The notes under the pieces were generated by a model that was not told where the DNA came from, searched no databases, and saw nothing but the letters and a program-made list of their open reading frames with translations. Made by a program: the position numbers and the translations under genes. Shown piece after piece: positions 13,307 to 26,731 of a stretch of 29,101 nt of DNA (position 1 is the first letter of the stretch; each line of letters starts with the position of its first letter). This DNA comes from a virus, in IMG/VR virus record IMGVR_UViG_3300025138_000235, positions 1 through 29,101 of that record; one strand, given 5' to 3'.

Positions 13307-13518
13307 AGCCTGAGGAAATCCTCAAGTTCCTAGAGAAGCTCAAAAAAGACACAGAGTCCATTTATTCAAATATCATGGAAACTCTGATCCACGCAGAAGG
13401 AAAAATATCTTATGCTGAGCTTTGGAGCATGAGCCCATTTGAACGAAACTTATTTGTAAAAGTACTCAATAACTATTTTAGCAAGAAAGCAGGTACTCAA
13501 GGAACAGAAGACTTATAA
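13282..13518 (+). CDS. 51: gp51-like baseplate hub assembly moiety, expressed by -1 frameshift
   Basis: The -1 frame after the slippery run encodes about 78 residues: GFLARAEPEEILKFLEKLKK, then DTESIYSNIMETLIHAEGKI and a C-terminal helical part ending GTQGTEDL, with stop TAA at 13516-13518. T4 has gene 51, a small baseplate hub assembly factor, immediately after gene 26, so position supports gp51; I cannot confirm the match by alignment. No start codon exists in this frame before an internal ATG at 13375, which would remove the first 31 residues, so the natural product is the fusion with gp26. The stop overlaps the next gene (TAATG), typical of a real coding frame. The pairing of a short and a frameshifted long product mimics the G/GT tail chaperones of other tailed phages. 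Confidence 0.75.
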   Translation, partial: FHGFLARAEPEEILKFLEKLKKDTESIYSNIMETLIHAEGKISYAELWSMSPFERNLFVKVLNNYFSKKAGTQGTEDL

Positions 13519-13940
13519 TGGCGTGGTACTTTAAAGACGAACTTGTAGAACAACTTCCAGAAGATTGTGAAGCGTTCGTATACTTAATTACTAACACAAC
13601 CAACGACAAAAAGTATGTTGGCAAGAAGTTAGCAAAATTCAAAACAACTAAACCTCCTTTAAAAGGCAAAAAGAATAAAAGGCGTGGCACTAAAGAAAGT
13701 GACTGGCGTACATATTGGGGTAGCAGTGATCATTTAAATGCTGATGTCTTAGAGCTTGGAGAGGACAGTTTTAAAAGAGAAATATTGTACTATTGCCCTA
13801 GTAGAGGCATAGCAAGTTACCTAGAAGCCAAAGAACAGTTTGATAGGCGAGTACTAGAAACTGATGATTATTACAACGGAATCATCAATGTCAGAATAGG
13901 TGGATCACAAATCCTTAAGGAACATCTCAAGTCCTTATAA
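13518..13940 (+). CDS. GIY-YIG family nuclease
   Basis: A 140-residue single-domain protein. VYLI at 21-24 and KYVGKK at 32-37 form the GIY-YIG pair. They are followed by DWRTYWGSSDHL (62-73), FKREIL with the conserved Arg (85-90), and EAKEQF with the likely metal-binding Glu (E103). Relatives occur as stand-alone genes in many marine T4-like phages and are often annotated as homing endonucleases, though no separate DNA-binding domain is visible here. Its ATG overlaps the gp51 stop, so it is co-translated with the baseplate genes, unusual for a free-standing selfish gene and compatible with a domesticated role. The reaction would be metal-dependent DNA cleavage. Confidence 0.85.
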   Translation: MAWYFKDELVEQLPEDCEAFVYLITNTTNDKKYVGKKLAKFKTTKPPLKGKKNKRRGTKESDWRTYWGSSDHLNADVLELGEDSFKREILYYCPSRGIASYLEAKEQFDRRVLETDDYYNGIINVRIGGSQILKEHLKSL

Positions 13941-23140: not shown

Positions 23141-25945
23141 ATGAACGGTGGTAAAGTAACAGGTCCTAATAATTTTGTAACTGGTGAAACCTATGGTACT
23201 ATATCTTCATCTATACAAGCTCATCAGGATATGGGAATCTATCTGGGTAAAGTTGTAAACAATAAAGATTTACATTTTAGGGGCAGTATAGATGTAGAAA
23301 TACCCCAATTACACAGAACAACAGGCGATAAAGTAAAGTCTATTAAAACATGTAGATACTCGACACCGTTTGGTGGCATTTCAAGTATTAGTACAATAAA
23401 ATCTGACAATACAGAAAAATTTGAGAATACCCAACAAAGTTATGGCATGTGGACTCAACCACCTGATATAGGAAGTTTAGTGCTAGTTTGTTTTGCAGAT
23501 GGTAATACTAAACATGGCTATGTATTAAGTCACTTAATGGCTCCAAGCAAAAACAATATGGTACCAGGAATGCCTCATGGAAGAACATTCCAAGGTGGTA
23601 AATTTAAAGTACCCACAACAGAAAAAAACAAATATTCAGAACAGCAAGGCGACACTAACTCAGTTATAAGACCTATTCATCATGATTTGGCTGAAGCAAT
23701 CACAAAACAAGGTTTAATTAATGATAACATAAGAGGTACAGGTACTAGTGGCAGTAGACGAGAAAGTCCAAGTTCTGTTTTTGGTGTATTAACCAAAGGC
23801 CCTAGAGGGTTAGATGGAAAAACACCTATAGGTGCAGGACATCAATTTGTTATGGACGATGAGCCTACTAGTTCATTAATAAGAATAAGATCAGGCAAAG
23901 GTCAGCAAATACTACTAGACGATGTAACTGGCACAATATACATGATTAACAAAGGCGGGTTAGCATGGATCGAACTTGATCAAACAGGTAATATTAATCT
24001 ATTTGGTGAAGGTGATATAAACCTTAGGGCTAAAAAGAATTTTAATCTTCGTGCAGACTACGATGTTGTTATAGAAGCAGGACAAAATATCCGGATGAAA
24101 GCCGCGGGTGATAATATTGCCGGCGACTACATGGGTAGTAAATTAGCAAAATTAGGGTTACCACCATTAGGCACAGGAGGTAATATTAACTTCCATGCGG
24201 CCGCTGACGTAGGAATATTAGCCACTCGAAATGCACAACTATCCGCAATAGGTGGAGACATAGATATTAACAGTGGTAACATGCTTAAAACACTAAGTGG
24301 TACAGCAACATCTATTTCAAGTACAACTATAGGTGTAGACATAAATGCAAAAGCAGGCGTAGTTGGTATAGCCGCCCCAGCAGTAGGAATAACAGCAGGA
24401 TTAACAGGTATATCTGGAGGCTTAATTAATTTAAATACAGGACCGGCACCTATACTTACAGGATTAGATGCACTAAAAGTTTCTGCTCCTCCCTTAGACG
24501 GTATAGATCAAGAAGATCAACCCAGCGAACATCCTGAATACGACAGAGAAGGTGATGTTGCTCTAACCAGTGGCGGAAAACGTCCTGGGTCCAGAACTAA
24601 AATCAATACTATTGTTGGTAACTTACTAACAGCAGAGCCTTATGATGGACATGGTCAGTTTGATCCTACATCTGAAGACCCAGAGTCCATGGAAGAAGAT
24701 ACTTCCGCAGATGCAGAAACACTTAATGGACAAATTAGTGGAGACGACCAAAGTCCTGCAACTGTAGTAACACCAGAAGGTGACAAAATAGGTAACGGAT
24801 TTAAAGACCCTGTAACTGGTGCTGTAGGATCAGCCTCTGATGTTATGGACGGTATAGGTAATGGCTTAAACGGAGTAGGTAGTTCTATAAGTGATGCCAT
24901 GGGTGCTATAGCAGGCATGATACCTAATATGGAAGATGTGAGTGGTATGTTAAGTAACTTCTTACCTGCAAGTATGAAATCCTTAATGGGCATAACAAGT
25001 ATGGAAGGAATGATAGCGGCAATGGGCATAGCCATTCCTGCATTTAGGTTCCCTACAGGTAACGCAATAGGTGATAAAATAATTGGTCTAACAAAGCAAA
25101 TGAAAGAACTAGAATCAAGACTAGGACAGTTTAGTTTAAATGATTTTGATTTACCAATAGACTTAGATTCACTACAAATAAAAGAGTTTAAAAATAAGAT
25201 AGCAGGAGTTGTAGGCGAAGTTACAGCACTACAAGGCCAGGCTAATCAAATAAAAGACGGTGTAACTGATCTGCGTACAGGAGCAGATTTATTAAAAGGT
25301 AAAGTTGGCGATTATAAAGAAGTATACGATGGTGTAACAGGTGAGCCTATGGGTTCTATGGGGATAACAGGTAAAAACTTTATAGCAGTAAAATCAGCAT
25401 TAGCAGAAAAAAGTATAGACGTAACTGTTGATGGACCTAGTTTAATATTTGCAGATAGAAAAACAGGAAATAAAATAGTAGACGTTTCTAATGGTATAGG
25501 ACCAGTAGGTCAATCATTAGGCTTAATAAGTACTCTACAAGAAACGAAAAAATTCATGTCTGACTTAATCACCGTTGACATTAGTGATAATCAATTACTT
25601 GCATTAACTAGTTTTGCTTCACATATAGGCATACAAAATTTTGCTAACAGTGAAGTACTTATAGAGTTAAATAATCAAAATTATGCACTAGTCCCAACAC
25701 TTATGAAACGTTGGAGGACTGGTAGAGTCGGCGCTGATAGTGAAGTTGTTGTTAGGCAAGACTATGTACAAAGAAGAGAATATGAATGTGAGTTATTTAC
25801 TACCCCAGATTGGTGTAAACTATCACTAGAAGAAATGGGTATGGGAAGTGCAAACAAAAATATGTCGTTCAGACAATTACGCTCTATGTTAAAATCTGCT
25901 AAGGAGCAAAAGTATATAGAAATGGGACTTATAGTACCTTCTTAA
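23141..25945 (+). CDS. 5: Baseplate central spike protein, gp5-like, with a C-terminal degenerate lysozyme-like domain
   Basis: A 934-residue spike. Residues about 28-145 are the OB fold of gp5/VgrG proteins (GIYLGKVVNNKDLHFRGSID, later PDIGSLVLVCFADGNTKHGY). Residues about 220-440 form a triple beta-helix with short repeats (GNINLFGEGDINLRAKKNFN onward). A disordered acidic linker, Gly/Met-rich helices and a coiled coil follow. Residues about 755-890 resemble the T4-lysozyme (GH24) fold: SLIFADRKTG, DISDNQLLALTSFASHIGIQ (A821 region), then RREYECELF (878-886). In T4 the lysozyme lies between the OB fold and the beta-helix; here it is at the end. The catalytic Glu position appears to be Asp (D764), so activity is doubtful. 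GGAG in the end of the preceding gene serves as ribosome site. Confidence 0.9.
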   Translation: MNGGKVTGPNNFVTGETYGTISSSIQAHQDMGIYLGKVVNNKDLHFRGSIDVEIPQLHRTTGDKVKSIKTCRYSTPFGGISSISTIKSDNTEKFENTQQSYGMWTQPPDIGSLVLVCFADGNTKHGYVLSHLMAPSKNNMVPGMPHGRTFQGGKFKVPTTEKNKYSEQQGDTNSVIRPIHHDLAEAITKQGLINDNIRGTGTSGSRRESPSSVFGVLTKGPRGLDGKTPIGAGHQFVMDDEPTSSLIRIRSGKGQQILLDDVTGTIYMINKGGLAWIELDQTGNINLFGEGDINLRAKKNFNLRADYDVVIEAGQNIRMKAAGDNIAGDYMGSKLAKLGLPPLGTGGNINFHAAADVGILATRNAQLSAIGGDIDINSGNMLKTLSGTATSISSTTIGVDINAKAGVVGIAAPAVGITAGLTGISGGLINLNTGPAPILTGLDALKVSAPPLDGIDQEDQPSEHPEYDREGDVALTSGGKRPGSRTKINTIVGNLLTAEPYDGHGQFDPTSEDPESMEEDTSADAETLNGQISGDDQSPATVVTPEGDKIGNGFKDPVTGAVGSASDVMDGIGNGLNGVGSSISDAMGAIAGMIPNMEDVSGMLSNFLPASMKSLMGITSMEGMIAAMGIAIPAFRFPTGNAIGDKIIGLTKQMKELESRLGQFSLNDFDLPIDLDSLQIKEFKNKIAGVVGEVTALQGQANQIKDGVTDLRTGADLLKGKVGDYKEVYDGVTGEPMGSMGITGKNFIAVKSALAEKSIDVTVDGPSLIFADRKTGNKIVDVSNGIGPVGQSLGLISTLQETKKFMSDLITVDISDNQLLALTSFASHIGIQNFANSEVLIELNNQNYALVPTLMKRWRTGRVGADSEVVVRQDYVQRREYECELFTTPDWCKLSLEEMGMGSANKNMSFRQLRSMLKSAKEQKYIEMGLIVPS

Positions 25946-26128: not shown

Positions 26129-26731
26129 TTAGTTCTCTATTATTTTATGCAACATATTTGTTACAGTATTATTTAACAAAACTCCGCTATGACCTGCTTC
26201 TATAGTGATATTTTCGCTGTTTTTAAATTTAGGTGGTGTTGCACCTTGGCTATCTACTGTAATCATACCGTCATTTGCTTTACCACCTAATCCTGCAACA
26301 GGATTGGAGCCATTAGTACATATGATGTTTGTGTGTCTTCCGTTATATGTTTTTTCTTGTAATAAGGCAAGTACATCAGCACCTGGTTTAGTGTTTTCAA
26401 ATACTTTACCTCTAAAAAACATTCCAAATACTCTGGCCATTGGTGTGCCTTCAAAGGGTGTTGCTATTGTAACTAAGTGATCTACATTTTTAGGATACAC
26501 ACTAGCATACCAACTTGCTATTAATCCACCAAAACTATGCCCTACAAGTACTACAGGTTCTTTTCCAAACTCTCTTTCTTTACGAATTCTTAAAATTTCT
26601 ACAATGTCGAACGGGTCATCTTCCATATCGTATGCTGGTGCAAAGAATGGGTGCTCAGGTATCTTCAAAGTAAAGTAATTAAAGTTGTCAGGGTCTGCAT
26701 TTGCCCCATGTAGGTAGATTACATTTTTCAT
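26129..26731 (-). CDS. Alpha/beta hydrolase (lipase/esterase-like)
   Basis: A 200-residue hydrolase. The oxyanion-side strand is VIYLHGANADPDNFNYF (4-20), the nucleophile elbow is GHSFGG (64-69, S66), the likely acid is D154 in KANDGMITVD, and the His is H181 in EAGHSGVLL. ATPFEGTP (90-97) is typical of the PGAP1/lipase-like branch. There is no signal peptide, so it acts in the cytoplasm or is released at lysis. The substrate is unknown; an acyl ester of host membrane lipid or of a storage compound are candidates. It has its own sigma70-like promoter, implying early expression apart from the structural genes around it, and no Shine-Dalgarno. Confidence 0.88.
   Translation of the reverse strand: MKNVIYLHGANADPDNFNYFTLKIPEHPFFAPAYDMEDDPFDIVEILRIRKEREFGKEPVVLVGHSFGGLIASWYASVYPKNVDHLVTIATPFEGTPMARVFGMFFRGKVFENTKPGADVLALLQEKTYNGRHTNIICTNGSNPVAGLGGKANDGMITVDSQGATPPKFKNSENITIEAGHSGVLLNNTVTNMLHKIIEN

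Follow-up and report, generated by a model that had tools for sequence, protein, structure and literature searches.

A conserved, very probably inactive lysozyme-type domain at the C-terminus of the gp5 spike in uncultivated T4-like phages

Introduction

During injection, opening of the cell wall is usually ascribed to tail-associated lysozymes. In phage T4, an active lysozyme sits between the OB fold and the beta-helix of the spike protein gp5, and the beta-helix ends the protein, capped by the PAAR protein gp5.4. The virus fragment studied here (29,101 bases; 'the window' denotes this whole stretch) encodes a spike that shares the OB-fold and beta-helix plan of T4 gp5, but its sole lysozyme match lies at the C-terminus. 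Where did this domain come from, and does it still cut the wall? A sequence-only reading had proposed that the T4 domain was relocated to the end of the protein, that it was apparently inactive, with an Asp (D764) at the position of the catalytic Glu, and that it may now serve as a structural or peptidoglycan-binding tip.

C-terminal placement of a gp5 lysozyme is already known, since the RaK2 gp5 homologue carries one in a domain composition called very unusual (PMC3622015) and CBB gp5 combines one with a possible M23 domain (PMC5259590). Our literature search, which covered mainly openly available papers, found no account of an inactive or degenerate lysozyme maintained at the tip of gp5.

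Results

The window encodes T4-like structural proteins, namely gp23 (PF07068, E 9.5e-99), the prohead protease (PF03420) and the gp20 portal (PF07230). Further matches in PHROGs include a gp46/gp47-like nuclease, a late sigma factor and gp53-like and gp6-like wedge proteins. The open reading frame at 23141..25945 (+ strand) runs from ATG to stop and encodes 934 amino acids; the frame, its length and the peptides quoted by the sequence-only reading were all found in place. Its product matches phrog_13211, 'baseplate hub subunit and tail lysozyme' (E 5e-30), and residues ~26-380 are ~25-37% identical to gp5 of PA5oct, Phosso, SCTP-2, RaK2 and 121Q-type large phages in tblastn alignments. The gp25 wedge gene (PF04965) lies shortly downstream. 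These matches identify the product as a spike of the gp5 type from a T4-like phage.

Two other genes of the window deserve mention. An alpha/beta hydrolase (26129-26731, - strand; PF00561, E 4.7e-12, and a PHROG esterase/lipase match) is placed between gp5 and gp25 within the baseplate cluster. In addition, a 140-aa open reading frame (13518-13940, + strand) matches phrog_447 'NAD synthetase' (E 5e-35) as well as homing-endonuclease families, and the PHROG name may be wrong.

Within the spike, the OB-fold region covers approximately residues 33-135 (23237..23545, +), as judged from colinearity with relatives and a weak match to Phage_base_V at residues 100-130 that stays below the Pfam cut-off. 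It leads to the beta-helix without an intervening lysozyme, and this arrangement is colinear with that of the relatives. The beta-helix repeats extend over approximately residues 270-450 (23948..24490, +), based on weak, below cut-off matches to DUF2345/DUF3540, on phrog_9992 and on alignment A6. A low-complexity linker follows, and then a conserved, helical-looking segment beginning with 'IPAFRFPTGNA..' (together 24491..25363, +; limits approximate, from comparison with relatives). The remainder, residues 742-934 (25364..25942, +), is the tip domain, which we classify as a degenerate GH24 domain or pseudo-muramidase from profile, alignment, model and fold comparisons. The order of OB fold, beta-helix and C-terminal lysozyme recognized earlier stands.

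The GH24 homology of the tip, likewise recognized before, lies well above chance. Pfam Phage_lysozyme (PF00959) matches residues 795-863 with an E value of 6.1e-9 for the whole protein, above the curated cut-off, and PHROG endolysin families, the NCBIfam BgtA and SpmX models and PDB lysozymes all match the same C-terminal part. The Pfam match spans only positions 44-111 of the 125 in the profile, so the half of GH24 that holds the catalytic residues is not recognizable by the profiles used. When alignment A7, which comprises 27 family members, was compared with intact GH24 sequences by hhalign, the probability was 99.3% (E 9e-21).

We modelled the tip with AlphaFold2 on A7, leaving intact GH24 sequences out of the alignment. 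This model (mean pLDDT 87.4, pTM 0.73) superseded an earlier prediction from 7 close sequences, in which the N-lobe was weak (mean pLDDT 63.9). It contains a helix at 747-756, strands at 759-764, 767-772 and 778-781, a long helix at 788-809 and then the C-lobe helices. The predicted C-lobe, residues 788-890 (25502..25810, +), fits the endolysin 8app_B with an rmsd of 1.1 A over 92 columns at 32% identity (Foldseek). Many longer Foldseek alignments superpose badly (5-19 A), as would be expected if the N-lobe is remodelled or the two lobes are oriented differently in the predicted structure. VIA-align gave 8app (Z 13.1) and SpmX (6h9d, Z 12.9) as its top two matches; other endolysins of the P22/R21/Acinetobacter type mostly reached Z 11-13, versus ~6 for T4 lysozyme. 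The structure prediction and fold search proposed by the sequence-only reading returned a lysozyme-type fold. Matches to KtrA in the PDB searches were taken as chance. Residues 891-934 (25811..25942, +) are a family-specific extension of the C-terminus in which the model places a helix; most family members in A7 share it, and the endolysins compared lack it.

The N-lobe, residues 747-787 (25379..25501, +; model pLDDT ~82-86), is remodelled into a helix and three short strands. In place of the catalytic lobe, the family shows a hairpin with the motif '(V/I)DGPS(L/I)I..D..G.K(V/L)(V/I)(D/E)...G(I/L)GP.G'. The segment VDGPSLIFADRKTG, previously read as a weak match to the first half of GH24 lysozymes, belongs to this family-specific hairpin, which the GH24 profiles used do not recognize. 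The effect is visible in where profile matches begin: at positions 38-66 of 152 in degenerate members versus 2-13 in intact tips and same-branch endolysins, although most of the latter sequences also built that profile. With Pfam (125 positions), most degenerate members start at 42-48, with outliers at 26-34, and most intact tips at 1-4.

The Glu, the Thr and the TIGYGH strand of GH24 are absent. In intact GH24, helix 1 ends with the catalytic Glu; in the tip, this position falls into a gap (hhalign) or a deletion (BLAST), and a residue census of the 27 members found no conserved Glu in any N-lobe column. The column that hhalign aligns to the catalytic Thr holds I, V, L or M, and 'IVDVSN' replaces the 'TIGYGH' strand. 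MAFFT alignments with intact GH24 sequences scattered the N-lobe, and residue equivalence was not taken from them. Loss of the catalytic Glu from the tip is robust, in agreement with the sequence-only reading. One divergent member, L081 (2554-3207), has a Glu within VENVGIVTYMDKQSGIS, in what could be an E-8-D-5-S remnant of the catalytic triad; L081 may be an intermediate.

The more specific proposal that D764 (codon 25430..25432, +) occupies the position of the catalytic Glu was not confirmed. By hhalign, D764 falls two residues before the Glu, which itself lies in a gap just after it, and D772 falls on the catalytic Asp. When one family member (L070) was aligned by BLAST with lysozyme R of Pseudomonas phage PP9W2 (E 3e-18), a deletion of 11 residues took in the Glu, and the counterpart of D764 fell on the catalytic Asp; a second member (L080) aligned to the TRS1 endolysin gave the same placement of D764. 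Many VIA alignments start at D764 and pair it with residues about three after the Glu, which in the R21 endolysin is Glu35. The equivalent of the catalytic Asp therefore depends on the register, being D772 with hhalign and D764 with BLAST. While the three methods differ in register, none of these alignments sets D764 on the catalytic Glu. An E-8-D-5-T register was also rejected on spacing, because 7 residues separate D764 from D772.

Could the tip still be an enzyme, with D764, D772 and D781 forming a non-canonical muramidase or transglycosidase? These residues are conserved in 26, 22 and 23 of the 27 members, respectively, the tip is under purifying selection (see below), L081 offers its possible triad spacing, and the ambiguous register of the N-lobe leaves room for an unconventional active site. 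Against this, no Glu is conserved, the Thr column holds I, V, L or M, the TIGYGH strand is gone and D772 is replaced by H or A in five members. In T4 lysozyme, loss of the Glu abolishes catalysis. We consider continued enzymatic activity unlikely; a lysozyme-type domain at the end of gp5 is well supported, and it has very probably lost its catalytic activity.

How widespread is the degenerate tip? Scans of viral contigs yielded close relatives of 74-79% identity, and an alignment of the OB/beta-helix core led to 80 further gp5 loci, in many of which a tip profile found the domain. The 27 members of A7 align over the whole tip, with 26-77% identity to the window and shared motifs. In a tree of the gp5 core (92 rows), every row with a degenerate tip falls into a single clade of 36 rows with a support of 100. 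The clade yielded no tip with an intact GH24, and four of its loci carry no tip. A more careful tree of 38 rows gave the same split (100/100) and implied that tips switched between the fused and the separate state three times or more. Thus, the degenerate tip spans a whole group of uncultivated phages and is broader than the sequence-only reading had seen. No isolate with a degenerate tip was seen among the tblastn matches listed for four family queries, and the sole find of a scan of genome contigs was a GH24 protein from a Clostridiales MAG, with a match over 47 residues.

Outside the clade, the gp5 C-terminus holds other modules: GH24 in five loci (among them L138), GH24 together with a CBM5/12-like chitin/cellulose-binding match in three and SLT in one, with nothing recognized in others. 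Four further gp5 homologues outside the clade end in a match to the S74 intramolecular chaperone, which is unexpected on a spike.

In eleven loci, the tip is encoded by a separate open reading frame that begins no more than a few tens of bases from the stop codon of gp5. A purine-rich, Shine-Dalgarno-like stretch precedes most of these frames. In three of them the break comes earlier, so that the linker region falls in the second protein. Encoding on a separate frame argues that the tip domain is able to act in trans.

These genes bear on the idea of a decaying, functionless vestige of an active lysozyme. The lost catalytic residues are what such decay would leave, but the motifs are invariant across a divergent clade, some phages maintain the domain as a gene of its own with a separate start, and dN/dS is low. 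Between the window and six relatives, it is 0.12-0.22 for the tip and a similar 0.07-0.26 for the OB/beta-helix core (Nei-Gojobori); both ranges are rough because dS is near saturation. Judging from these comparisons, neutral decay of the tip is very unlikely and a functionless vestige is highly improbable; purifying selection maintaining the C-lobe is shown.

We then turn to origin. A tree of the C-lobe, built on only 94 columns and with several long branches, separated (100/99) a T4-type side, comprising T4 gp5, RaK2, Vibrio 2.275 and the CBM-linked tips, from an endolysin-type side with the endolysins, L138 and all degenerate tips. Three further degenerate tips group with the family on long branches. 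Forcing the degenerate tips together with the T4 gp5 and RaK2 lysozymes was rejected (AU p 0.0086). By this placement, the C-lobe belongs to the P22/R21/SpmX branch of endolysins, and the T4 gp5 lysozyme is not its source.

A T4 lysozyme that moved from between the OB fold and the beta-helix to the C-terminus is accordingly contradicted by the tree, and by the fold comparison, in which P22/R21/Acinetobacter-type endolysins score about twice as high as T4 lysozyme. The C-terminal position is real, and gp5 of RaK2 and Vibrio 2.275 do carry a T4-type lysozyme there; even so, we regard relocation as very improbable, and that part of the sequence-only reading gives way to acquisition of an endolysin-type GH24. 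A RaK2-like origin of the tip is rejected by the same tree. RaK2 gp078/CBB_240-type gp5 proteins (Alcyoneusvirus and relatives) resemble the window protein in having an OB fold, a beta-helix, a C-terminal lysozyme and a similar gene order. They differ in that the RaK2 lysozyme is T4-type with Glu, Asp, Thr and TIGYGH intact and is preceded by an M23-like domain, whereas the window tip is endolysin-type and degenerate and M23 peptidase (PF01551) has no match in the window. The presumed source is the P22/R21/Acinetobacter-type GH24 endolysins, whose C-lobe is alike in fold and sequence (~30-43% identity). Unlike the tip, these are stand-alone enzymes with an E-D-T triad and TIGYGH, lacking the C-terminal extension.

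Discussion

The trees suggest that an endolysin-type GH24 was joined to gp5, or set directly downstream of it, in the ancestor of one T4-like clade. Sequence and model show a later remodelling of the catalytic lobe, in which the end of helix 1 that carries the Glu and the strand with Thr and TIGYGH gave way to a short conserved hairpin, with the C-lobe retained under purifying selection. As the cutting machinery is lost yet the domain is kept by selection, the tip probably binds some target instead of cutting the wall. Opening of the wall would then need another enzyme. Besides the tips, no GH24, M23 or SLT genes were found in the related fragments, a result that says little about absence because these records are partial; since all are uncultivated fragments, other wall enzymes in the same phages are an assumption.

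What might the tip bind? A non-catalytic peptidoglycan-binding module, in which the kept C-lobe would still bind glycan strands and so fix or orient the spike within the wall, is possible though doubtful. The predicted C-lobe fold is well preserved, and other gp5 tips are wall-directed (intact GH24, SLT, CBM5/12, and M23 with GH24 in RaK2-like phages). However, the hairpin lobe, which supplies the second half of the cleft for glycan, is rebuilt here, and the separate-gene forms are not covalently attached to the spike. Because some phages encode the tip as a separate protein, docking to a protein (the spike, the tip itself or the host) is slightly favoured over attachment to the glycan of peptidoglycan.

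The closest earlier example of a repurposed GH24, by analogy, is the muramidase domain of SpmX from Caulobacter and Asticcacaulis. This lysozyme-like domain has no detectable activity in vitro, binds PopZ and DivJ directly and oligomerises (PMC5347347). The tip is close to it in fold (6h9d) and in the NCBIfam SpmX model (E 2e-6), and both fall on the same GH24 branch. SpmX differs in being a bacterial polarity protein, outside phage spikes, that keeps its Glu (E19 in Caulobacter numbering, PMC5347347; the structure compared is from Asticcacaulis), whereas the tip lacks it, so the comparison concerns only how the two may work. On this analogy, we think it reasonably probable that the tip is a conserved pseudo-muramidase that serves, without catalysis, for docking or for binding the wall. 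A 'structural or binding' role, as proposed by the sequence-only reading, is still the most sensible interpretation. The wider proposal, that a clade of uncultivated T4-like phages uses a dead spike lysozyme, in the spike or co-encoded with it, as a non-enzymatic adaptor and virion counterpart of SpmX-type repurposing, seems to us about evenly balanced.

A clade that keeps the domain without its catalytic lobe suggests a second, non-catalytic job of the lysozyme fold at the spike. It gives, in parallel with SpmX, a case in which the repurposing of a phage lysozyme can be tested, and it marks the gp5 C-terminus as a place where modules are often exchanged. The C-lobe by itself lifts the tips above the Pfam cut-off, so automatic annotation will probably miscall them 'tail lysozyme' or 'endolysin'.

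Other enzyme-like domains were seen at gp5 C-termini. Those of Agrobacterium phage Atu_ph07 (L021:7303-8499, E 1.5e-17) and Sinorhizobium phage Phosso (L022:7900-9048, E 6.7e-10) end in a trypsin-like peptidase (PF13365). By eye, Atu_ph07 keeps 'TNAHVV' and 'GMSGGPV', and Phosso has 'TNAQVI' and 'GMAGGPV'; from these motifs, the Phosso tip may be a second dead-enzyme tip. In Phosso gp5 (L022:5917-9051), a Gly/Ser-rich linker of well over 150 residues lies between the beta-helix and the tip modules.
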